A DNA stretch of 64,000 nucleotides from Isoetes taiwanensis (lineage: Eukaryota; Streptophyta; Lycopodiopsida; Isoetales; Isoetaceae), in assembly GCA_021234155.1 (NCBI GenBank), contig JAJEKV010000147.1, forward strand, positions 1,117,910-1,181,909. The letters run 5' to 3'. Below, in pieces: positions 5,643 through 61,926 of the stretch (positions are counted from its first letter, which is position 1; each line of letters opens with the position of its first letter). The notes under the pieces were generated by a model that was not told where the DNA came from, searched no databases, and was given only the letters and a program-made list of their open reading frames with translations. Made by a program: the position numbers and the translations under genes.

Positions 5643-5782
5643 TTTTTGGGTTGCCCCTAGGGGGGCAAACCCTTGTTTATGTGGGTATGTGGGCATATCC
5701 AGGTATATGCCGGCATATGCTTAGCATATGCTGGTGACTGCTCCAAACTGGCTGCTGCCTGTAAACTCTCGGTCATCCGGCC
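5643..5782 (+). repeat. E1 leader (140-bp conserved 5' end)
   Basis: This 140-bp block is nearly identical to 46983-47122 on the minus strand (6 substitutions and 2 single-base indels by eye). It contains the palindrome GGGTTGCCCC-TA-GGGGGGCAAACCC and several overlapping GCATATGC words. It ends one base before the start codon of the SYP1 retrocopy, so it may have served as its 5' leader or promoter. Confidence 0.85.
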
Positions 5783-6638
5783 ATGAATTATGTGAATCTG
5801 AAGCGAGATGTGATGCGAGATTTGGAGAAGGGCGCAACCGAAATGGGAAGCTTGGACAAGAATCTGGCGAGTTTCTTTGATGAAATTTCCTATGTCAAGA
5901 CCGAGATGGAGAAGATCCGGCAGCTTTTGGCAAGCAAACGATGAATCCAAGACAGTACATCGCGCTGCAGCGATGAAGGCAGTTAGGGATAGGATGGATC
6001 GGGATGTGGAGGAAGTTTTACGCCTTGCAAGGTCGATTAAGGGGAAGCTTGAAGAGCTCGACAGGGCAAATATGGAAAATAGAAAAAGGCATGGTTATGA
6101 AGAGTGCACAGTTACCGTGAACGAAAGAAAAAAACTGCAGGATCTGATGGGGGAGTTTCAGAAACTGAGAGAAAAAATGATGGGCGAATACAGAGAAACG
6201 ATCAAGAGGCGTTATTTTACCATTACAGGCCAGCAGGCTAATGAACGAACTATTGAGGATATCATCGAAACTGGGGAGAGTGAGAATTTTTTGCAACAGG
6301 CCATTCAGGCACAGGGCAAAGGAAATGTGATTGAAACGTTAGGGAAATCCAAGAAAGGCATGATGCCGTTAAGGAAATTGAGAAAGCTTGTTGGAATTGC
6401 ATCAGAATTTTTTTTTAATGTGGCAGTTTTGGTTGAAGCACAGGGTGAGCAGCTGCATGATATTAAACAGCATGTTTCTAAAGCTTGCAATTATGTGGAG
6501 AAGGGGAGCAAGCAGCTCCATTGTGCAAAACAACATCAAAGATGTACTTGCAAATGCATGTGTATTGGAGTTAATTTGATGCTTGTTATGATCATCATGG
6601 TTGTTGTTCCGGTTGTTACAAGCATGAAAAAAGCTTGA
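5783..6638 (+). pseudogene. SYP1-like: Processed pseudogene of a SYP1-type Qa-SNARE syntaxin
   Basis: An intronless copy of a plasma-membrane syntaxin. From ATG at 5783 the Habc region reads in one frame (LEKGATEMGSLDKNL, FFDEISYVKTEMEKIR), then shifts near 5935 to ESKTVHRAAAMKAVRDRMD. The SNARE motif is split over three frames: EIQERHDAVKEIEK near 6345, LLELHQNFF near 6385, then NVAVLVEAQGEQLHDIKQHVSKACNYVEKGSKQL. A C-terminal membrane anchor ends VVPVVTSMKKA at 6638. The length matches a full syntaxin of about 290-300 residues, minus a small deletion around 6110. At least four frameshifts mean it cannot make a functional SNARE. Absence of introns suggests capture from mRNA. It starts directly behind the E1 leader. 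Confidence 0.85.
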
Positions 6639-6639
6639 T

Positions 6640-7050
6640 TGCTTGGATTTTGCCTCTGAATTCTGGAATTTTCCGTCCGTTGCTACTTATATAGATGCAG
6701 TTGATATACTTATCAGAGCTTTAGGATCCTTTTTAAAAGAAGAAGAAAGCACAAGCTACCACTCATCCTTTGACAAGTACAGAGTTGTTTCTATTAGTAC
6801 ATTTTTAGTAATATACATCTTGTTATGTTATTTTCAAAGACCGATTAACTAGCTGCCATCCTGAGTTCTTGGGCTCTGATCATGATCAATCCAAAAATAT
6901 AAGAGCCAATCTCAGTACCGCAGACATATTTTGTGATGGCTGTAGATTTTCCCCTTTTATCACGGCTCGAGACAATGGAAAGCAGGGAGCTCAAGAAACA
7001 TTGTGTATTCGAGTTGGCTCAAATCTGCTGATAGATATGGCTCCGGTTCT
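6640..7050 (+). other. E1 interior, unidentified
   Basis: Frames at 6643-6852 and 6869-7069 are open for about 70 codons each but show no motif I recognise. They may be 3' sequence of the syntaxin transcript or other captured DNA. Confidence 0.3.
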
Positions 7051-7155
7051 ATTCCTAGAGTTAAAGTGATGCATACATCACGAGATTTCCTTGGCCAAGT
7101 TTACATTCCTGAAATATACTGGCTATTGATGGTTCTTTGTGTGCTAGTTACGGCT
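7051..7155 (+). pseudogene. HAK/KUP potassium transporter fragment
   Basis: About 35 residues, [20 protein letters not shown] followed by [14 protein letters not shown]. They match the conserved segment of plant HAK/KUP/KT K+ transporters (PRVKVVHTS, GQIYIPEINW). In intact proteins the next residues lead to GNAYG. Here the match stops abruptly, so only a fragment was captured or survives. It sits between the syntaxin retrocopy and the PILS exon inside E1. Confidence 0.65.
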
Positions 7156-7409
7156 TGGTGCTATCAATTTCACAAAATGAGTATGTGGACATATTACCAG
7201 CTAAGGCACGAAAACAGCTTAGTAAGGTATTTCTTTTGCTGGACATTTGGTTTGCCATGTGCAGTTGGTGTCCACTGTGTTTTTGCCTTGCTTAATATTC
7301 ATACAGCTTGGATCAGCAGTCACATTTCAGAAAATACTTGAATGGTAACCTTCAGTTTAGAGCTCAGGCACACGACTTTCTATATCTTAGAATTTTCCTC
7401 TTTATGCAG

Positions 7410-7526
7410 GTGGTTTATTCTGGTTAACATTGTGCTTGGTGCAGTCCTAGGTTGTACCTTGTGGCTCATTGTCGCACTTATTATTCGCCCTCCAAAGGAA
7501 TTTTTCAAAAGACTATGCTTCAAAAG
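7410..7526 (+). pseudogene. Isolated PIN-LIKES (PILS) exon with splice sites
   Basis: The 39-codon segment has the signature WFILVNIVLGAVLGC and IVALIIRPPKEFFK. It aligns with WWFVPINVLLSNAIGC and IVALICRPPPQF of the full PILS gene at 54.4 kb. It is preceded by TTTATGCAG and followed by GTAAGG, a credible acceptor and donor, so this exon was captured as genomic DNA. PILS proteins are ER-located auxin carriers with 8-10 membrane helices. Neighbouring PILS exons were not seen, so this is a relic. Confidence 0.7.
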
Positions 7527-7859
7527 GTAAGGAACTCCTGTTTTGTTAAAAACTGTTGGTGGACATCAACCTGGTCACTAAAACAATTAGCCTTGAATAT
7601 TAAAACTTCCAAAAAGATACCATATCTAATTTCAATGATGACATTACATTTTGATGCGGACTGTGAATGGCATTTTCCCCATATGTAGGCTCTTAAACAT
7701 ATGTGATGTATCATGCAAATCTTTGAACAGTATAAGCTTAGTGAGGGTGCTTGGCAGTTCAGAGCAATGTAATTGGAAGGCATAGAACCATACAACAGAT
7801 CATTTGCATGCATGCTTCATGGTTATGCTTGTCTTGCTGATTTTTTGGAATGCTGATGG

Positions 7860-9060
7860 ATACATGCCTACAGGTTGCATAGTGAAGTTGTGGCGGACAT
7901 TGTGACGGCAAGTGCGGTAGTGGCCTAGACACAAAGGTTGCCTTTGATAGAATGGCTAAGAAATTTGTGGTCACATGGAATGCCATGATTGCTGCATATG
8001 TCTAGACTAAAGAAGATGAGGAAGCTATGAAGCTGTTGCAAGAAAGGCAAACTAAAGACTGGAGGAAGGGAAAAAGTTGCATGCTTTTTCTTTAAGTTGC
8101 AATTTGGTGATGAATGTAGCTACTGACGCTGCCCTTGTTGACATGCATGGAAGATGATGTTACCTGAAGGAGGCACTAGGAATATTCAAGGGGACGTCTG
8201 ACCGCAACGTAACTTCGTGTACAATAATAATTGCATTTTTCGTGTAACAGGTGTGTGAAGGTAGCATTTTGGGTTTTTAAGCTATAAAATGTGATGCCAA
8301 ATCATCCCACATTTTTAGTGATTTTGCGTAAGTATGTTGAGATGGCAGATGTCAATCCAAGTAAATGGACACTTCAAAGGTAGCAAATTTAAGCTAAACG
8401 TTGTCATTGTTAGTGGATGTATAGCAAATGCGGTATTCCAAATGATGCCCAAGTTCTCATGTTACCAAAATAGTTAAATGTAATGTAGTTTCTATGGTAG
8501 TTGCCTCTGCTGAGAATATTTTCTAGCAGATGTAATTAGAGGGAATTGTACCGAATGCAATCACTATGACGAGTGCTCTTGAAGTATGTGCCACTTTAGT
8601 GGCATCAACAAAGTGGAAACGGATTCATGTTCAAGTGTTGCATAGTCTGTTAGACTTAAATCTTGATGAATCTTGATGTAACCAATGGTGTGATAAATAG
8701 GTATGCCAAGTGTGGCAATGGTAAAGATCCATGAAAAGCATTTCCTCATCCTTGGACATGTAATTTTGTTTGTTGGAATCTTATGATTGGGCATAATGCT
8801 AGAATGTAATATGGAGGAAGCACTTTGACCTTTTTGCGTTTTATTAAGGTACGATATGATATCAAATGGTATGATGCCAAATGCAGTTACTTATCTCAAC
8901 TTTCTCATCTCAACTTTCTTGTTGTACGGATTCTTACCAGCTTTGTGCCTTGGCATAGCCAAAGATTGTTAACTTTGCATTAGCAGCTCTAAAGACTTGT
9001 TGGAAGCCAGATCATCTCCAACAAAGTAAAGAGGAATGGAGTATGCGATGTAGAGTCCAT
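7860..9060 (+). pseudogene. Decayed PPR-protein gene fragment
   Basis: Pentatricopeptide repeat protein debris spread over all frames. Recognisable pieces are MAKKFVVTWNAMIAAYV then EDEEAMKLL (7950-8050), LKEALGIFKGTSDRNVTS near 8165-8215, EGIVPNAITMTSALEVCATL near 8540-8600, a VTNGVINRYAKCGNG match near 8680, and SNGMMPNAVTYL near 8860. This is the spacing and vocabulary of plant PLS-class PPR proteins that bind organellar RNA. Stops and frameshifts are frequent, so it is clearly dead. It forms the middle of E1. Confidence 0.75.
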
Positions 9061-9611
9061 CGTTGTTTTTGTTTCAAAGGTCTACCATGCGTATCCATTA
9101 AAGCATGATCCGAGAAATTTACTATCAAAGACAACTGAACATGTCTCTCACTGTCTTGCAGATCGAGTATGCAAAGGCTTTTTGGAACATTCTTTTCTAC
9201 TTGTATCTTTCCCAGTCATTTTAAACTTCCAATTCAGAGACATAGAAAAATAACTGTCAAATTTAAGTGGGGCGAGGCTGTTGCAAATGGCAATCTCGGT
9301 TAGGCCAGAGGCAAATATATCTTCCAATTTTATAAATGAGCTAATATCAGGGACATTTGACTCAATGGAGGGATGGTGGCTTGTTATGTATACTTTTTTC
9401 TTGGTTTTGATATGCCCATCATCACTCATACATGTCAAATCTTAATTTCAGAGACTCGGCGATCCCGTTTTACGACCTTTCCTTCAAGTAACTTAGTCTC
9501 CCTACTTGTAGTAATTATAAGATGTGAAGTTGACTCACCTCACTGTTTTAGAGTTTCAATGATAAGGATGTGATACAATTTGGCCTTTTCCTATATCTTC
9601 ATCGTGTCATT

Positions 9612-9665
9612 TTGTGACCTCTACCAGATCATGAAGCACCCACTTGACTTTGGGAATATGACTTC
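9612..9665 (+). pseudogene. Possible bromodomain fragment
   Basis: Seventeen residues, DLYQIMKHPLDFGNMTS, resemble the bromodomain stretch YFxIIKHPMDLGTV. A stop follows at once. The match is short and could be chance. Confidence 0.3.
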
Positions 9666-10350
9666 CTACTAATATATTCTTGTCATGCTAAAATTTAATT
9701 ACAAGTACAAGAACAGGCTCAGTAAGATATGAGTGAAATTTTCAGGACACATTTGAAACAGAGATTTGTATTCAATCAGCTTTGCTGCCTCCAAATGCAT
9801 GGTAAATTCATGGTTTCTCGCATTTCAATATCATGCATTATCCTCCTTATATTTACAGTCCTGAGCAGTGATAATATGCACCAAATGAAGAGCAAAGTTT
9901 TGATTTAATTCTTTTGTCAAACTTTCCTAGTGGTATAAAAGGGAAGGGAGCTTTAGGTTGTATGTTGTTCATGTGGAACTTTAGAACCTTTCTAAATGGC
10001 TATATATTGATTTGAACCTAGTTTTACATCTTATTACAAAACCATTGCTATACAAAGTAATCAAAAGTGCTTTTCACTAGTTTTATGAAAAACTATATCT
10101 AATCTCAAAGCTAACATTTCCTCAACAATCTAACCTAATCTCTAATTCTAAAACAGCCCAAGCCTGCTGTTGCGCCTTTTTGCTAGTTTTTGGTAGAAGA
10201 CTAGCATAGGAGTAATCTGGATAACTATATGATATAGAGCTAGGTACGAATTTGATAGGTTCGAGATTTTACTCTAATTGTAGAAATGGTATTTAACCTT
10301 AAACAGACAATGAAAGCAGTTGTAATGCCACTGATATGTTTGAGTCCAGC

Positions 10351-10504
10351 TTTTTGGGTTGCCCCTGGAAAACCCTCATCCATGTGGGTTTGTGGCATAT
10401 TCCAAGTATATGTCAGTATATGCTCGAAAACATGACTTTGAAGTGTGATTTAAGCCATTTCACTCTCGGGTCACGGAGGGCAACCCTTCGTGCGCAGCAC
10501 CTTG
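10351..10504 (+). mobile_element. Short element E3 at the right end of E1
   Basis: Starts TTTTTGGGTTGCCCCTGG like the leader, follows it loosely for about 85 bp (CATGTGGGTTTGTGG, GTATATG), then passes into the 3' terminus shared with E2 (hairpin and GCGCAGCACCTTG). It therefore looks like a complete 154-bp minimal element, or an internal leader duplicate, whose right end is also the right end of E1. Confidence 0.6.
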
Positions 10505-10518
10505 TTTATATAGCGTCT

Positions 10519-10660
10519 TTGTTTTATTACCTTCAAGATCCTAATGATGACAGCCACACGATAATTGATATGTCGTAATCCTCTCCATGCCACCTAATGT
10601 TACTACCTAATTATAGACATGCAATTCTGCTCAACTTTTTTATATATTGTCTATGTGTCT
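10519..10660 (+). repeat. Repeat R, right copy with empty E1 target site
   Basis: Direct repeat of 5519-5642. It continues through CTGCTCAAC, a T6 run, then ATATATTGTCTATG, and thus preserves a paralogous uninterrupted target of E1. Confidence 0.8.
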
Positions 10661-42216: not shown

Positions 42217-45200
42217 CAAGGTGCTGCGCACGGAGGATTGCCCTTCAGTTTCTTGAGGTGAAGTGGCCCAAACCAAACCGTGAAGTCATTTAAATTAAAG
42301 TAGTCCCCTACCATGCTCTTACAATTAGTTTGTAGGTCTCCTACATTCATGTACAAGCCCGTCCACAAGTGCCCCTCGATTGAATTGTGTATGCAACTGA
42401 CTAGTTTAATGTTGTAGAAATGTTTGTATGTACCTGTTTTATGTCTTGCAGACACAATCATAGCACTTCCTAATACTCACAATATTTTAAGCTATAGGCG
42501 TTCATCTATAACATCGATGAACGAGTCACAACATACAATAAACAATCTTTCGGGCGCTGTTCCACTTGAAAGACATTGAGAGAAGTTATATTGTTATTCT
42601 GATCTTATTTCAATCATTTTCTGTCTATTAGTATCACCATTGTGTTGTGAAATCCAGGTGCCCAAAAAGTGTGCACCCAATGTTGCCACGCTTGATAGAA
42701 TTGTGTATCATGTTATAGCAGCGTCGTCATAGCAATGTGATGCTTTTTTTATATTATTTGTGTAGGTACATTTCACGTATTATTTATGTTGAAGTCTTAT
42801 AGTAAGTAGATGTATTATGTTTGGTGCATCGCCAAGAGCTACAAAAAGACATATTGGTCTCTTTATACAAAAAATATAATAACCTTGCAACGAATGAGTA
42901 GGAAAATGTAGCTCTGGGTCCAAAAAGATAACCTAAATTGTCAGGATCCTCAAGATGAACATCCTAGAAAAATGTTTGGAAAAAGAGGAGCGCATCTATT
43001 AGATGCCTTTGTACCCTCCTCTAGTAACACCCAAGGGAGCATCTAGTAACAGATGTCAAACTTTATTTGTCATATTTAGCAAATATTTGTCATCAAATTC
43101 TTTATAGTGGTTATTTTATTTCTTAAAGGATGGACATTTATCATCCCACATATAACAACTCCTTTACCATCTCATCATCTCATATATAAAATTCATAAAT
43201 ATTCAATGATGGTAAGATAAAGTTTTCAAAGACCAATGTTTTTTTTTTTTTTTTTTTTTTTTTGTAGTAAGAGTGCGGACTAAAAGACACCATTTTATTG
43301 CTTTTTTCTTTCACAAAGGGAAGACTAGTAGTGCATCCCTATTATGTCGAAATCATTGTCCTACTTATCCATGTGGAAATCCTAGACCTAAAAATACATT
43401 TCCTATTAGCTGGCTGGTTTTCTCCTCCATAGCAAAGAGAGACCAATACCCTCCTTGCACATCCACAATTTTTATGTTTTCGGTCTCATAAACCATATGG
43501 ATTTTCCAATGCTTCTGGTCTCATAGACACTATGGGTCTTCCATAATCATTAATAAATCTTAGGCGTTCTGTGGTGCTACGGTCACTTACAGTCATTCTA
43601 TTTGATACCAATTTGATACCAATATAGTGCTCAAGCACATTGGGTCTTCTAGAAATGTTTGCCATAAGTCCGTTCGCAACTTGAAAGAACTACACTGTTG
43701 ACTGGTTGATGATCAGGATTGGAGCCTCAAGTTAGTGAGAATGTTGTTTCAGGTGTATTATTAGATGTGTTGGAAATATGAAGAATAAATTTATGTGCTG
43801 AAATGGACGAGTTGCTGATCTTAACACTGATCTTAACACGTATAGGTTTACTAGGATATAAGTTACATCGGCTGAGGTGGACAGAAAGCCATCTTTCACT
43901 TTCTGGTATTGGGAATGTGTACAGTTAAGGGCAAAAGACTTTCATGAGCAGCCTTCAACTTATTGACACTTTTTCCAAGGAAATAATGCATCATACCATG
44001 GATGCATTCATCGTACCATAACGCACCTTGTCTTGCCAACCTCTTTCCAAAGGAATGCATAGATGTCATGTACTGTTTCTGTTTTATGGACAAAAACGGA
44101 GACTTGTGGCACTTCGCTATGATGACTTGATTTTAATACGAATCAAAATTTCTCAACCGTCTAAATGTTTAAGCAGAGAACACGGAATGGGGAGTTTGCC
44201 CTCAAATAAATTTATGCCTATCTAGCTGAACAAGACATCTAAAGGAAACATGAAAATCTACCAATTCTTTGGGAGCATGCCAGCAAGGAATTTTCTGCTT
44301 ATTAGATGAGCAGGGCATCTTGAGATAGCTGAGTCCGCTCTATATACACAGCAAAATGATCTCGTCGAAAGGAGAAAATGAACTCTAGAGGCTATATTTT
44401 TGGGAAAGTAGTGGCCACTTGCAGCTTATCTCCTGAATTGTAGTCCTATAAAGCCTTTAGGCTTCAAAGAATCCAACATCATTTAGGGTGTTTTAGGTGA
44501 AAAATCATGGATATGGCACTAAAGAGTGTTCGCTTGTGTTCCTCATATAAAGTTGACCAACGCAGCATGCAGATTGCCATAAGGCCTATTGTATGATCTC
44601 TATGGTCGTGAACCAGATGTCCATTGCGAAAAATGTGCTTCTTTGGTGACAGACTGCTGTTTGATCATTTTTGGCTTAAGGAATATTTCCTAGTGAAGCA
44701 GCAGCCAGTTGACTTTGATGAAGAGAGTGGTGATGGTCCTTGGACCTCCTTGGGGCAAGCCTGGAATCTAAGCTGCTGAGGAGGTTGCGTGTAACATCAC
44801 TTGCTTCACCCTTCCTAACTCCCAAGTTCTACAAGAGAATTCCAGGTAGTTAACTTGTCCGTAAACATGTCAATTTGGCATTGGATCAAATAGGTATATG
44901 AGACCAATTTCAACAAGCTAATGAAAATAGGAAGTGAAGTTTTTCCTCCTGCAACAAGACTGGCTAAAGTCCACCAATGATGGCCATGGCAGCACTTCAT
45001 GGTATTCAACATTTCCAGATTAAAGGAGAAAGAAAAACGTCTTAGTAAGTTGCAATCTCGCACGGGGAAAGTGCTGAATATGCAGAATAAACATTATGTA
45101 CTAAACATGTATTTAATTAGTTAATGAGGACTTCCACTTAGTAGCTTTTAGCTCTCTGACCCAAAAATACCAATTATATTGGCCATTATTTGTTGGCTTC

Positions 45201-45950
45201 TGAAGAAGTTTATGAGGAACAGGTCAGTCGTGAAAACACAACCCCACCCCAGGGGGTCTTGACATAAGCCATACACAATATAGATGACTCCATGACATTC
45301 AGCAGAAGTATGAGACCAATGTGGCAAGTGCATGAATGGTCATGGCTATGTAGCTGCCAGTACTTCTATGTCTAAATGTGATCACACTACGGCGCATATT
45401 GGCTAAAGAAAATTGATAATCAGGCCTCCGTTTAACCCCTTTAAAAGAAGCTCATCTACTAGATGCATGCCAGTAATTGGGTCACATGAACAAGTAATCT
45501 GATAGTAGAATGTACTCCCATTGCCTTTGTAGGACATGAAGCTTCACGCTACAATTTTGCATGTAGATGCTTGTTTTTCCTGAAGATAAAGATCATAATA
45601 GTTGTTTTGCATGGCAAAAGAACATCAAGATAATTGGCTCAAGATCAATGAATCCTTCTGATTTGGAATTACTCTATTGGAAGCCCTGTGCAATTTGATA
45701 GCCTGTTATTCTCCAGTACAGACCCATAAATGCATCAAGTTGCAGCATACAACCATAAATTTACATCTAAAATGCAAACGAAATTGATAATTAATATTAC
45801 AATGCTCTCTTCAACTCCATAAAAGATAATGACCAGCATGTAAGGCAACAGGGAAGCCCTCTTTTTCAAAATCAAATATACTTGCTGATAGTTAAACATA
45901 GTTCAAGACAACATAAATATTGTCAGCTGAAGGATAATTGTTCAGTTTTC
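42217..45950. other. E2 interior without recognised genes
   Basis: About 3.7 kb. Open stretches such as RLLFDHFWLKEYFLVKQQ (plus strand, near 44660) look protein-like but I cannot name them. A 25-T run at 43239-43263 with AATAAA upstream in the minus sense suggests an inserted polyadenylated transcript end. A small hairpin CGTTCATC...GATGAACG lies near 42498. Confidence 0.35.
43239..43299 (-). other. Poly-A tail with AATAAA signal (minus strand)
   Basis: A 25-nt T run on the plus strand is a poly-A run on the minus strand. AATAAA lies 31 nt before it (43294-43299). This is the signature of a reverse-transcribed mRNA or LINE 3' end. The source transcript upstream (above 43300) is not recognised. 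Confidence 0.5.
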
Positions 45951-45953
45951 AGG

Positions 45954-46708
45954 CTACAACAAAAAAGGCAATACAGCCTTTCTTTGTTTGGGGTAGTCAG
46001 GAAATTTTTTTAAATACCAGCGGTGCTTAGACAGAGCTCTTGGGATGAGATTTGCAGCAGTGATCAAGAAGAAGCCAAGTCCGGCAAAGGATTAGGTTAA
46101 AATGGCCCAGCCAAACCATTCCAGAATTTCCCCAAACTAATTAGGGCAACTGACATACCTGAATAAGTATCCTCTTGGCACAGTATAGGACCGTTCCGAC
46201 GGATACCTCCTTAAAGAAATTAGCACAGAATCAGACCATATATTGATGGTCATTTCCAACAAAAAAAAATGCCTGTTCCAAAAAGGAATCTCCAACTCTG
46301 AAGCCAATCTTCATTATATGAACCATAATGAGATATCCATCCAGCTTGAATATATGAATTATATAAATTGAACATGAAGGCAGAAAGAACAGTTACCACG
46401 GGTATTTCCTTGCCTTCAGATCTCATTCTGAAGGGGTACACCAGAGTTCTATGAATGTGATGAATCTGAAACAGACGGAAAATGAGAATGGGGACAAGCT
46501 TAGAAGAATGCTGGCCTGTTGAAAAGAAGATGAAACTGCCCCAAAGCGTAGGGCTTTCTATAAGAACCCAACCATCTCTATCTGCCATTGAAGGTCCCCA
46601 AGAAGACGAAGAATGCCGCCCGTAAGGAGCTGTGACTTTGTTGAGAAGGGGAAAAAATATCAGCGCCATCAGATACTCGCTCCATAGGAATGCCCAATAC
46701 CTGTCCAT
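45954..46708 (-). pseudogene. DET2: Processed pseudogene of DET2 steroid 5-alpha-reductase
   Basis: A contiguous, intron-free copy. From ATG (46708): TAPYGRHSSSSWGP, ESPTLWGSFIF, HIHRTLVYPFRMRSEGK, NSYIQAGWISHYGSYNED, a 1-nt deletion in a T9 run at 46261-46269, TINIWSDSVLISLRR, YTVPRGYLFRYVSCPN, TAG stop, FGEILEWFGWAILT, TAA stop, SFAGLGFFLITAANLIPRAL, KHRWYLKKFPDYPKQRKAV, stop at 45954. The length of about 251 codons equals the family (about 260 aa). DET2 reduces steroid 4-ene bonds in brassinosteroid synthesis in the ER. Two stops and a frameshift abolish function. It sits 274 bp behind the E2 leader. Confidence 0.9.
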
Positions 46709-46982
46709 TACAGACTGCTTCTACTCCGGCGTCTCCGACTAGGGCTAAAAAATAAGGCTATATTTTCGTCTGCTCACAGCATGATGCTCATCTGCTGCAT
46801 CTAGCATTCTGGACTGCGGCCTGGAGCATCTAGGGCATCTTAAGACAACTTGCTACAAAACAATAACTCCTCCATCTGTATTAACCGAGGAAGAGGTTTC
46901 TCTTGAAAGCCAGAGGAAAATGCTATGCTTGGAAGAAGAAGAAGGGTCGAGCTGCGCCATAACCACGCCTGCAAAGGAATGG

Positions 46983-47122
46983 GGCTGGATGACCGAGAGT
47001 TTATAGGCAGCAGCCTGTTTGGAGCAGTCACCAGCATATGCTAGGCATATGCTGGCATATACCTGGATATGCCCACATACCCACATAAACGAGGGTTTGC
47101 CCCCTAGGGGGCAACCCAAAAA
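46983..47122 (-). repeat. E2 leader (140-bp conserved 5' end)
   Basis: Minus-strand counterpart of 5643-5782. The palindrome reads GGGTTGCCCCC-TAGGGGGCAAACCC. Similarity stops right after GGTCATCCAGCC, the same place as in E1. Confidence 0.85.
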
Positions 47123-54167: not shown

Positions 54168-54415
54168 CAGCCGGGCGATTGAAGCGAAGACACACGGCGG
54201 TGGATGTAAAAAAAACATTAAACATAGTTTATTGACGACGGGGAGAAAATAGATTTTTTTTTGAGGCGGACGGAAAAAATGAGAATGCTTTATATATGTT
54301 TAGATAAATGGTTTTTTATTCAACAAATTAGTTGTCTTTCTGAAATACACGAATATAATGTTTGTTCCATCCTTTTTGCCCAATACATTCTTCCCTCCAA
54401 GCTTGCAATCTGGCG

Positions 54416-55738
54416 ATGGCTATGGCTTCCATTTTTCAATCTCTTGCCTCCGTGCATATAGAGCAAAACATTTTAGGACCAATTGCACCTGTGCTTAAAA
54501 TCCTTTCCATGTGCGCAGTCGGATCAATTCTGGCGCATCCGAAAGTCAGAGTAATGAATCACGACGCTTGTAAGATTCTTAGCAAATTAGTGTTTGCCCT
54601 GTTTCTTCCATGCCTTATATTTACAGAGCTTGGAAAATCTGTGACGTTAAAGGAAATGGCGGTATGGTGGTTTGTACCTATAAATGTTCTGCTTAGCAAT
54701 GCAATAGGCTGTTTCTTTGGCTGGATTGTAGCTCTAATATGCAGGCCGCCGCCTCAGTTTTGCAGGCTTACGATTGTATTAACAGGGATAGGAAATACTG
54801 GAAATATTCCTCTGGCTATGGTTGCATCAATCTGCCATGGCTGGAACCCTTTTGGAGATAAATGCAACCAGCGTGGAGTTGCATATATTTCTTTTGGACA
54901 GTGGGTTGCTGTTATTATAGTTTATGTTTTTGTGTATCATATGTTAGAACCCCCAAGAGAATTCTATGAATTGGTATCAGAAGATGGAATTGTAGAAGAA
55001 ACAGAGGAATCTAGTTCATACATGAATTTGCCCCCATTGTTAGAGGCAGAATGGCCTGGGGTAAAAGATGCACAGACAGAGCATACAAAAACTCCCTTTT
55101 TGTATAGAATATTCAGGCAAGGATCATTTATGGATTCTTTTAGATCTGAGCCAGAAAATGAGAAAGTAGGATGTATGGCAGCACCAAGAGTGGCAAGGAA
55201 AATAAGGATAATGGCAGAGAGGACACCTCTGCATCATATATTCCAGCCTCCAACTGTGGCATCTCTGCTAGCAATTATTTTAGGTTCAATATCTGCAACA
55301 AGGGCTATGCTTTTTACAGAGGACGCACCATTTGAATTTGTGATGGACAGTCTGACAATACTTGGAGATGCAATGGTGCCATGCATTATGCTGGTGCTGG
55401 GAGGAATGCTTGCAGGGGGACCAGGTTCTTCAGAGCTTGGGCTGAGAACTACAATTGGAATATGTGTCACAAGATTGGTTATTTTGCCTCTGGTAGGAAT
55501 TGGTGTGGTGGCTGCTGCAGCAAAGCTTGGATTTTTAATTGAAGGTGGTGGTATGTATCGATTTGTTCTATTGCTTCAACACAGCATGCCTAGTTCAATA
55601 TTATGTGGTGCTATGACCAGTTTGCGTGGCTATGGCGAGAAAGAAGCTTCCTCTGTTCTATTCTGGCAACATATTTTTGCTGTTGCAACCGTAGCTGCCT
55701 ATGCCACCATTTATTTTAAGGTAGTTTTTTGGATCTAA
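54416..55738 (+). CDS. PILS: PIN-LIKES (PILS) auxin carrier, intact and intronless (retrogene)
   Basis: Open for 440 codons from MAMASIFQSLAS (54416); an in-frame ATG at 54362 adds 18 residues. PILS/membrane transport protein (PF03547) layout: about five N-terminal helices with AHPKVRVMNHDACKILSKLV, LFLPCLIFTELGKSVT, WWFVPINVLLSNAIGCFFGW, RPPPQF and GIGNTGNIPLAMV; a cytosolic loop (residues ~190-280); then FQPPTVASLLAI, GDAMVPCIMLVLGGMLAGGP, QHSMPSSILCGAMTSLRG and a final helix. PILS proteins gate auxin at the ER. No stop or frameshift occurs, and no intron, although the PILS exon in E1 has splice sites within the same region. A processed retrogene, possibly functional, is the best reading. 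Confidence 0.88.
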   Translation: MAMASIFQSLASVHIEQNILGPIAPVLKILSMCAVGSILAHPKVRVMNHDACKILSKLVFALFLPCLIFTELGKSVTLKEMAVWWFVPINVLLSNAIGCFFGWIVALICRPPPQFCRLTIVLTGIGNTGNIPLAMVASICHGWNPFGDKCNQRGVAYISFGQWVAVIIVYVFVYHMLEPPREFYELVSEDGIVEETEESSSYMNLPPLLEAEWPGVKDAQTEHTKTPFLYRIFRQGSFMDSFRSEPENEKVGCMAAPRVARKIRIMAERTPLHHIFQPPTVASLLAIILGSISATRAMLFTEDAPFEFVMDSLTILGDAMVPCIMLVLGGMLAGGPGSSELGLRTTIGICVTRLVILPLVGIGVVAAAAKLGFLIEGGGMYRFVLLLQHSMPSSILCGAMTSLRGYGEKEASSVLFWQHIFAVATVAAYATIYFKVVFWI

Positions 55739-56729: not shown

Positions 56730-57833
56730 AGTCTCACAAACGTGCTTCAGTGATTAGATTAAGCGAGACATGACATCTGGTGTGCGTTCTACTCGTGTTG
56801 CTGCGATGTCCCTTATAATGGAAAATAACAAAAGATGGGTGTCTGAATATATGAAAGAGAACCGACGTTTATGAATATTCTTGATCCTATGTATGAACCC
56901 TTGCAATATCCATTATTTTTGCCACATAGTACTCTGGGATGGGGTCCCAACAATGAACATGGCATTATGCATTTACAATGGTATAAAACTCGTCTGTTAC
57001 ATGAGAATAGGTTCTTACAGCTAGGTCGTTTATGCAGAGAGTATTTAGTTGATATGGATTCAAGGATTGACAGACGTGCGATTAAATTATTTCAAAACGA
57101 CTATGTTTCGAAACAGAAGAATTCAATATGATGAAGATTACTCGGAATGCGAAAATAATGATTAGAACGTTGTTATATTGCCTGCATCATTTTTGGATTG
57201 CCAGAGGTGGTGTTTTGTACAAGTTGTTGATGCCTTGTCACTTTCTAGATCAAAGGGTCGTCCTACTTTATTTATCACCATAACGGCAAATACAGATTGG
57301 CCAGAAATAAGGGATGCCCTTAAACCAGGGCAAAAATGCCTCTAATATACCTATGGCTGTTTTTCGTTGCTTCCATGGAAAGTTACAACGATTGAAGGAG
57401 TTATTATATGTATCATATATGATAACAGTTGTGGAGTTCTAAAAACGAGGCCTACCCCACTCGCATTGATGAAATAATATCTGCTGAGCCATCGAGCGAT
57501 CCGATTATTTGGGGTTTAGTCCAAAAATTCATGATACATAGACATTCTGGTAGATGCTCTTCACGTAATTCTCCTTGCTGCTACAACTATCCAAAATCGA
57601 TCAATTCAATGACACACCTTGACTCAAAGGGATACGTGCAATATAGAAGGTGGAGTGTGGATGACATGTGGATTGTTCCATATAATGCATTCTTACTCCA
57701 GGAACTCGATTGCCATTCTATGGTTGATATTGCATATAATGTACATGTTGTTTCTTACCTATATGGCTATATATACAAGGGTTTTGATACTGCAAATTTT
57801 AAAATAACCCAAGAGAGACATACAGCTGGGTAA
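56730..57833 (+). pseudogene. Helitron Rep (helicase-like N-terminal) relic
   Basis: Rolling-circle transposase debris. 56871-57131 has MYEPLQYPLFLPHSTLGWG and the tail LGRLCREYLVDMDSRIDRR, typical of the Helitron-like N domain. 57200-57420 is shifted but shows SKGRPTLFITITANTDWPEI and KPGQKC. At about 57448-57466 KRGLPHSH gives the HUH motif, followed at once by a stop; another frame continues RIDEIISAEPSSDPIIWG, GYVQYRRWSVDDMWIVPYNAFLL and YLYGYIYKGFDT to 57833. The helicase half is absent. It shows that autonomous Helitrons existed here, relevant to E1 and E2. Confidence 0.85.
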
Positions 57834-59174: not shown

Positions 59175-59858
59175 TTACTTTCTTGCAGCTTGTCCATAGC
59201 CTGGACATGCCATCTCTGTCCTTGTAGCCCTCTGAAAGCATTTGCCTCGAGGCAAATTTGTTGTTAGTACATCGGTTGGATTGCGTAAAGGATTCTGCTT
59301 CACATACTGTTGCAGGTCTGGTGCTATCAACAAACCCTCTAGCCATGGTTTCAGAAGTGTCAAGAGACCTGTGTCTTCAACATCACTTTCCTGCCATGAA
59401 GGTAAGCATATGCAATTTTCGTTGGGATTGAAGAGCATCTTGTACTCGGAGTCGTCTACTATTAGTGTGTTGCTGTCATTCCTGCGGATACTTCTCGTAT
59501 ATAAACTCAATTGGCCTCGGATACAAAGGTTTGTCTTCTAAGTCGCAATCCCGAAAGGCGACTCCAAAGCGGTGGCTTCCATCAAAGGTGAACCTTAAGT
59601 CCCTTATCAAGGCGTCATTGTGAAGATTTTATCCACTACTCTTGATAGGTTCCATGGAGCTATTGATGACCATATTCCTACTTCAAAGTGTTCAAATACA
59701 AATTCCAGGAATTGGTCTAGGTGGGGCCTTAAAAACAACACTTTCTTGCCTATTATGTCATAATTTCCAACTAGCTGATCATCTGATACCAAAGTCCTAT
59801 GTATTTGTTTTGCCAAAACATTATTGATATCAAACACTATCAACCTTTTTTCAGACAC
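59175..59858 (-). pseudogene. FCP1/NIF-like phosphatase (HAD fold) relic
   Basis: The N-terminal piece (59858-59610) reads KRLIVFDINNVLAKQ, LFLRPHLDQFLEFVFEHF and VGIWSSIAPWNLSRVVDKIF. The FCP1-type DxD motif is DIN, so the second aspartate is missing. The middle (59600-59520) is in another frame: FGVAFRDCDLEDKPLYPRPI. The C-terminal piece (59510-59175) has NTLIVDDSEYKMLFNP, LLTLLKPWLEGLL and LQQYVKQNPLRNP, the usual end of this domain. Frame changes and the lost catalytic residue suggest a pseudophosphatase or dead gene. Same strand as the Ulp1 gene and 167 bp downstream of it. Confidence 0.7.
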
Positions 59859-60024
59859 CGATATGAAAGAACATGCAATTTATCAATAAAGTATGGTGGA
59901 GTTGAATAAAAAGAGATTTTATTCATTAAAATTCAATGGAAAAATGTGTATTTTATAATCAAATAGTGTTTAGCATTGACAATAATAGGCTATTTCTCAG
60001 CCATATTTATTAGTACCAGGTGGT

Positions 60025-61926
60025 CTAATGGTTTCGGGTGCGATGTGAATGAAGTAGTGCTCGGATGAGAACATCACGACGATCCTCCGCATACTTTGGC
60101 AAGAACCAGTTTTCGGGTAATCTGCAAATGTGACAACAATACTTACATAATAAGTATTAAAAACCATTTGTTTGCAAGACAAAAGACATGAGACACTCAC
60201 ATTGGTAGTTTTACCACACACGATTGTGTCTACAAACTTCTGCATATAAGCTGCAACATAGAGGCCACATGAATCCCCATCTTTCTGTTGTGGACACTTA
60301 TGAATCTTCACAACTGGTGAAGGATTTTGTCCATGCTTCAAAAAAGTGGGACACTCGACACAACCGCGTGCCATAGTGAGGATGTGGAGCCTGCAAAAGA
60401 CCAGATCTATTTTGTAGCAAATGAATGAAAGAAGCTGCTAACATGGTATCCAATCTACTCAATATTAATAAAAGGAGATGTGAAATACAAAATACCTCTT
60501 AAGTGCAAGCATGTCAACGTCAATGTCCTCGGCAGAATTGAAGATCTGAATGTTGATGGTGTTCTTACTCTTAGTAAGTGCCATGTTGAAGATGGCCAAA
60601 GTGTGATGTTCAGTAACTCTACATAGCATTGGAATCATGATCCATCTGCACTTCAGCCAATTTATCCCTGTAAGAGCTACCTTTACAATATCTCTTCCAC
60701 GCTCGGAGGCTGCCATAGATTTATCTTTTTCGCTTGCCTTGCAGTATGCCACAAATTCCATGAAGCTGTCCGGTGGGAAGAACCAGACGTCTGCCTTCTT
60801 ATCATCTGGAGCACAGAGCTGCAGGTACCTATAACAAGTTGAAAAGAATAAAATTACTAACTTGACTTACACATACAAATGAATAAGTTCAAAGTCCAGT
60901 ACCTGGCATACATATCCACATGCCGGTTGGAAAATTTTCCCACATCCATGTCCAGCACATCTTGTTCAAATAAATAACACTCCACTTCAGGCAAAGATCC
61001 TGGAAAAATCCTTGCCTTCTTGAGCTTCATCATTCGGTTGAGCAAGGCATCATATGGCCTATATTCAGAACTGCAGTCTGGGTTCAATGACCAATACATT
61101 TACACAAATCATCTACATTCGTCTACTACTATCCATATTACTTTAAAGTTTTTAACATGGATACTAGATGTAAAAAAAAATGTAAGATATGTAGATCAAG
61201 TTACCTGTAGAGATCATTCTTATACTCTGCTGATACTGTTTTCTCGGAGTCAGTATCCATTTCATTCCCTTCTTTTTTGGTTTCCTCACTCAGATTCTTA
61301 TTAGGTCCAGAATCCTCGTCTTCAACCTCTCCTGATTTCTCATTGTCATGAAATTCAGCCTCCTTTACTATGTCAGAAGCAAGATTTGACAAAAACTTAA
61401 GAGTATCCTGCTCTACATCTTGACGCTCGGAAGATTCCTCTTCATTAGGACCTGTAAACATAGGATGTCATGGACTTCTCAGCTGTTGTACAATGAAATA
61501 AAATGCTTTCTTACCTGTTTCTACTGCTTTAATTGTCTTCTTCTGTGGCTTTTTAGGCGTGGACTTCTTCTTTGGAGTCACATTTTCTGCTGCTGCCTTT
61601 ACTTTTGAAGATGTGGCCTTAGCCTGCTCCCTCAATCTCTCGAGTTCCTCGTCATAATCTGGAATGTCACCATGCAGACCTGAAGTGCCAGCCTCCTCAA
61701 CCTGTATCACCGCAGGAATAGTGATTTTGCTTTTTCCTTCAATCACTGCTTTCTTTCCCTCGGCTACATCTTGCACCTCAATTTTCTTTGGAACCTCCAA
61801 AACTGTGAAAACCGAACCAAGAATAAGAAATTGCTTCCTCTGACACAATGCAAAACAATTTGAAAACAAGCGCACCTGATCTGTGGTGTAATTTCTGCTC
61901 AGTTGTTTTTTTGGCACTTTGAAGCT
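60025..61926 (-). CDS. Ulp1-type SUMO protease-like gene (C48), multi-exon, 5' end missing
   Basis: Exons with GT-AG borders that join in frame: 61926-61876, 61802-61515, 61451-61205, 61070-60903, 60828-60496, 60390-~60220 and 60121-60025. The N-terminal part is acidic and Lys-rich (KKKSTPKKPQKKTIK). The protease domain has WFFPPDSFMEFVAYC, WLKCRWIMIPMLCRVTEHHTLAIFN (catalytic His), IQIFNSAEDID where Asp of the triad is Asn, and KDGDSCGLYVAAYMQKFV (catalytic Cys). It ends LPENWFLPKYAEDRRDVL. Two donors are possible for exon 6 (60220 or 60201); the first keeps the conserved end. Such Ulp1 genes are often cargo of Mutator-, KDZ- or EnSpm-like transposons. Upstream exons were not found. Confidence 0.75.

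Follow-up and report, generated by a model that had tools for sequence, protein, structure and literature searches.

The window analysed here, 64,000 nucleotides of the Isoetes taiwanensis assembly (contig C960:1117910-1181909), contains two elements, E1 and E2, which have both ends in common and differ in their interiors. They are likely non-autonomous members of a large gene-capturing family of the Helitron2 (rolling-circle) type in this species. The positions of both elements and their lengths of 4862 and 4906 bp, taken from an initial annotation of the window, were confirmed by direct reading. A mini element within the 3' end of E1 was missing from that annotation. The following features were assigned to E1 (all on the + strand; ATIR, asymmetric terminal inverted repeat):

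5643-10504: E1, whole element, 4862 bp; T run at 5643-5647, of which two T are probably the element's own
5648-5672: 5' hairpin enclosing the 5' ATIR GGGTTGCCC (folding compared with shuffled sequences)
5643-5782: leader common to the family (sequence comparison)
5779-6836: captured syntaxin (SYP1-type) piece; a leader-less relative on C971 spans the same limits
6836-7155: captured K+-transporter piece; relatives on C1038, C1027 and C1026
7153-7699: captured PILS-type (Mem_trans) piece; relative on C1045
7700-10324: E1-specific middle with weak PPR-like sequence; 9131-9585 related to C975
10325-10504: 3' module common to C941, C7, L023 and L028; includes the mini element
10478-10504: 3' ATIR GGGCAACCC and terminal GTGCGCAGCACCTTG
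10519-10641: left flank of E1 repeated in tandem, with an empty target (T run at 10636-10641)

For E2 (all on the - strand) these are:

42217-47122: E2, whole element, 4906 bp, inside Copia-related sequence
46899-47117: 5' part; two short elements match it at 93-94% in their first 213 bp
45163-46774: captured DET2-type (Steroid_dh) stretch; relative on C1103
42217-42659: 3' part; 42290-42659 has many relatives in the genome, 82-92%

Ends, copy number and target sites

In both elements, a T run leads into GGGTTGCCCC...GGGGGCAAACCC and the leader, and the last bases are GGGCAAYCCTYCGTGCGCAGCACCTTG. The leader, described before as a common stretch of 140 bp, is 94% identical over 141 bp, and the similar 3' terminus proposed for E1 and E2 was found as well. 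For the family, the 5' end is composed of the T run, the GGGTTGCCCC hairpin and the leader, the 3' end of the inverted GGGCAACCC followed by CGTGCGCAGCACCTTG. The element ends read TTGGG...CTTG with the target T/T. The ATIRs GGGTTGCCC and GGGCAACCC match at 9/9 positions in E1 and at 8/9 in E2. The 5' hairpin folds better than shuffled sequences (z -2.38 for E1 and -2.61 for E2; equalled by 4 of 200 shuffles in each case).

Genome-wide counts refer to the assembly of 1,658,258,908 bases in 1110 contigs. The exact 3' end pattern, of which GTGC-GCA-GCAC forms a part, occurs in 2821 copies (1423 + 1398 by strand) and the exact 5' leader pattern in 3193 (1600 + 1593); the reversed patterns, used as control, gave 0 in both cases, and the chance expectation within the window for matches to either end pattern is 0. 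The E2-type leader was too narrow as a query, with 4 exact matches only. For the pairing of ends, 82 listed 3' ends (contigs C1-C118) were compared with 100 listed leaders. A same-strand leader was located upstream within 20 kb for 36 of them, while the controls with wrong order and opposite strand gave 2 and 5. The pairs span 0.26 to 17.4 kb. Among 24 sampled leaders, all 276 pairs were similar over the inner 100 bp and two over the outer 100 bp; these two, L032/L040 and L029/L031, each have a common insertion context. For 28 sampled 3' ends, similarity was detected inside for 378/378 pairs and outside for 0/378. Thus, the counts, the pairing controls and the flank comparison, together with the ten interiors described below, support the initial proposal of many copies with sharp common ends and variable interiors.

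Some copies lie close together. At L001:1108-1160 a 3' end is followed by TTTA and then directly by a new leader, so that two copies follow each other head to tail, an arrangement that self-insertion or rolling-circle copying could produce. L032 (C1040:2137364-2138640) contains short elements of 258 and 269 bp in opposite orientations within 1.3 kb, and it is the left one that has its insertion context in common with L040 on C99.

The T run ahead of GGG comprises 5 T in 21 of 31 ends, 4 in one and more in nine; behind CTTG there are 2 or 3 T in 27 of 36 ends, more in seven and less than 2 in two (a few loci overlap in these tallies, and some ends are counted twice). With 12 joined flanks as query, relatives spanning the junction were obtained for four sites (best 40 matches scored). 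At C46a, C1b and C28b, all six fetched empty copies read T5 and the filled copies 5 + 2 T. For C46b, 5 + 5 T were counted in the filled copy; of its three empty copies, one reads T8, one T7, and the T run of the third is shorter and interrupted. The paralogous empty site reported for E1 was found and reads T6, compared with 5 + 3 in the filled E1. The location of E2 between Copia sequences was verified; one of two Copia relatives (about 80% identity) reads T8 against 5 + 6 in the filled site, and the divergence of the second is too great to read the target. Hence, about two T are gained on insertion. They may be the first bases of an element that enters TTT/TT or the product of a TT duplication. 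At sites with empty relatives no target duplication beyond two bases was detected (T5 versus 5 + 2 T), in agreement with the annotated lack of a long one. The described insertion into T runs without other duplication holds for E1, where the paralogue shows it, and roughly for E2 by the one readable Copia relative.

Captured sequences and variable interiors

Most of the host genes named for the two elements were recovered. Pfam matches were obtained for the syntaxin piece (Syntaxin 7.6e-35, SNARE 3.6e-8) and the K+-transporter piece (K_trans 1.9e-9) of E1 and for the DET2-type stretch of E2 (Steroid_dh 1e-8). The PILS-type exons of E1 (7244-7345 and 7411-7503) were identified by tblastn with the Mem_trans protein of the window (4.7e-10). 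The PPR assignment in E1 is weak (tblastn 2.9e-5 to a PPR open reading frame of another element). A long open frame at 54359-55738 of the window encodes a PIN/PILS-type membrane transporter (Mem_trans 5.4e-87), the same gene type as the PILS-type piece.

Relatives of the single pieces occur elsewhere in the genome. The C971 locus matches 5779-6836 of E1 at 87% and shows no leader within the 0.5 kb next to it; all or part of 6836-7155 is found on C1038, C1027 and C1026 (91-92%), and 7153-7699 at about 90% on C1045. Since the limits of these leader-less relatives abut, E1 consists of the leader followed directly by three contiguous gene pieces. On C969 a leader-like start (78% over 241 bp) is combined with the syntaxin piece at 96% (350 bp examined for a 3' end). 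The C1103 relative of the DET2-type stretch showed neither leader nor 3' end in the fetched flanks.

Two siblings were identified. C941 (about 6.6 kb) is 97-99% identical to E1 from the first base to 7699, apart from one 140-bp gap and one extra stretch of 46 bp, and lies in different flanks. It continues the PILS-type sequence for about 270 bp past the point where E1 departs, and its last 180 bp agree with E1 at 95%. No match to the E1 middle was detected in C941 (best 40 candidates scored; 1.2 kb of C941 lie outside the fetched sequence). The sibling of E2 on C1027 has both ends and 93-98% identity, is split by 14 kb and lacks about 290 bp. Thus, loaded elements moved as units, and middles vary between constant ends. 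C909 and C956 have the 3' part of E2 in common and lose similarity upstream. A template switch or gap repair within the element therefore appears more probable than a simple read-through at the 3' end. The last 300 bp or so of C7 are those of 650-bp short elements, which also fits the use of another copy's 3' end. E1 and C941, with both ends kept and different middles, provide material to separate end-bypass and gap-repair models of capture, as do E2, C909 and C956 with only the 3' part in common. Capture of cDNA was considered on account of gaps relative to the relatives at 7182, 7239 and 9256; it was rejected because E1 retains non-coding sequence between its two PILS-type exons and C941 retains 46 bp absent from E1 at 7239.

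For the comparison of interiors, E1 and E2 were combined with eight long elements (8.6-14.2 kb, picked for length from the 36 pairs). The interiors are unrelated: in all pairs, the reported matches cover at most about 170 bp of the 5' end and 185 bp of the 3' end, except for the inner leaders of E1, C7, C27 and C28a; C27 and C28a may be nested copies. Pfam content of the other elements comprises PPR in C46a, HSP70 in C46b, a PIF1 helicase fragment in C27 and Copia in C28b, the latter possibly a later insertion. In two of the Pfam searches, 5/10 and 9/10 open reading frames had no family match.

The mini element corresponds to the last 154 bp of E1 (10351-10504) and has its own leader following GTCCAG. 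Its inner junction occurs in 192 exact copies in the genome (88 + 104; control 0). This looks like a single nested insertion that then spread along with its host.

Proposed assignment to Helitron2 and rival explanations

Helitron2 elements are described, in the part of the source available to us, with a 5' hairpin containing the 5' ATIR, ATIRs of 8-15 bp, insertion after TTTT without target duplication and a 3' ATIR about 20-30 bp from the end; Helitron-1_CRe and Helitron-5_SMo are named (PMC3627910). A 3' hairpin and, in autonomous copies, a RepHel of the Helitron2 clade are further marks of the group. The family agrees with this partial description in the ATIR-containing 5' hairpin, the short ATIRs, the insertion into T runs, here with two extra T, and the abundance of non-autonomous copies. 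In contrast, the target is mostly T5 or longer, and no RepHel partner was found in the regions examined. Helentrons and HINE/DINE-1 elements are similar with regard to the TT target, boundary T strings, palindromic subterminal repeats, high-copy non-autonomous members and occasional captured gene fragments, as far as the accessible text of PMC4067079 describes them, and a resemblance is also seen to the Helentrons in the available part of PMC5148889. They differ in that the 3' repeat is nearer the end here; their endonuclease-bearing RepHel was not seen, with no autonomous copy found to inspect. The initial suggestion of a Helitron or Helentron-like element with non-canonical ends is thus supported and, by the terminal features in the Helitron2 source (PMC3627910, seen in part), narrowed to the Helitron2 type.

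Several results weigh against this assignment. The 3' ATIR lies 18 bp before the element end and thus outside the published range. The annotated subterminal 3' hairpin is weak in E1, where 29 of 200 shuffles fold as well, and in E2 it is no better than shuffles (111/200). No exact leader was present within 20 kb for 46 of the 82 3' ends (exact ends only counted), host-gene cargo with Pfam support was detected in four of the ten elements (E1, E2, C46a and C46b), and the two added T are equally compatible with a 2-bp TT target duplication. A copy encoding RepHel, which the annotation had led us to look for, was not found in the regions examined. A genome profile search with PF14214 gave 1813 candidates, of which at least 150 loci were listed; family ends were present in 0/20 of the 3-kb regions upstream of chosen loci and in 0/10 regions from about +2.8 to +6.4 kb downstream (L097 partly N). 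A second Rep clade, reached via a degenerate Rep fragment in the window, comprised 1482 candidates (at least 150 listed) and includes an open RepHel of 1643 aa (Helitron_like_N 1.1e-32, PIF1 1.4e-44); neither of the two 9.6-kb loci fetched from this clade had convincing family ends.

Weak end-motif matches near RepHels were taken as chance; those at the two loci of the second clade have at least 3 substitutions, and one in the downstream regions of the PF14214 loci lies inside an open reading frame. The upstream regions of RepHel loci were compared to define the ends of their elements, and no clear ends emerged. The PIF1 fragment of C27 was rejected as an autonomous copy, as it has no Rep part, and is read as captured.

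Gene-capturing canonical Helitrons (Helitron1), as in maize, likewise have common ends, several captured gene fragments and non-autonomous copies. Divergent members of this type with drifted ends, moved by the RepHels that are abundant in the genome, would account for the hairpin of E1 that lies some 12 bp ahead of CTTG and somewhat resembles a hairpin plus CTRR. However, 5' TC, 3' CTRR and the A/T target are all absent from the family ends, the 5' hairpin with ATIR is present and the examined RepHel regions lack family ends, so that we regard this origin as improbable. The opposite strand ends in five A and sits in A runs, as expected for a retroposon read in the other direction. The A stretch is, however, nearly constant in length, both ends are sharp and share an inverted repeat, and duplications beyond two bases are lacking at sites with empty relatives; a retroposon is very improbable. 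Pack-MULEs are defined by target duplications of 8-11 bp and long terminal inverted repeats. Neither was found at the filled and empty sites inspected, and a Pack-MULE or other cut-and-paste transposon with gene pieces has hardly any likelihood left in spite of the many copies, gene fragments and variable interiors. A Replitron-like or other helicase-free single-strand (HUH) transposon with a 2-bp TT duplication would explain the two extra T at filled sites and the lack of a RepHel with family ends in the regions examined. Replitrons are reported in lycophytes with target duplications of 2-8 bp; in the accessible part of that report they have direct terminal repeats of 5-11 bp, no inverted repeats and lengths of 0.9-4 kb (PMC10741241). 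In contrast, the longest word common to both family ends in direct orientation has 3 bp, an inverted repeat is present and many pairs of leader and 3' end exceed 4 kb. This explanation is unlikely, slightly more so than drifted Helitron1 elements.

For the Helitron2-type family, a RepHel supplied in trans would cut at both ends and copy the element by rolling circle, with the end point of copying specified by the 5' hairpin together with both ATIRs. Cargo could be gained by a template switch during copying or by gap repair, with both ends retained, or alternatively when another copy supplies the 3' end. It is conceivable, though rather doubtful, that the ends are kept and the middle is re-copied from new templates in most rounds, with RepHel provided in trans by an element with different ends. 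If so, a large share of the about three thousand copies would be one-off mosaics of host sequence. Large-scale shuffling of gene fragments by non-canonical Helitrons is indicated for an early-branching vascular plant, and the end motifs reported here would enable a full census of the family. Given Helitron-5_SMo, which we take to be from Selaginella, these would probably not be the first Helitron2 elements described in a lycophyte. It is plausible that the family is undescribed to date: the word Helitron has 0 occurrences in the available part of the Isoetes taiwanensis genome paper (PMC8566536), and among the open-licence papers listed, none reports a family of this kind from Isoetes in its title or the opening of its abstract.

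Other possible mobile-element remains in the window

At 56847-57833 the window contains Rep fragments, degenerate in sequence, from a divergent Helitron clade; they match other RepHels in tblastn (down to 2e-19), and the genome holds 40 or more relatives at the DNA level. On the - strand, 59607-60866 contains a piece similar to NIF phosphatase (3.2e-8) and gives a weak match to Ulp1 protease (8e-4) that does not reach the curated cut-off. The latter two may be left over from other mobile elements.

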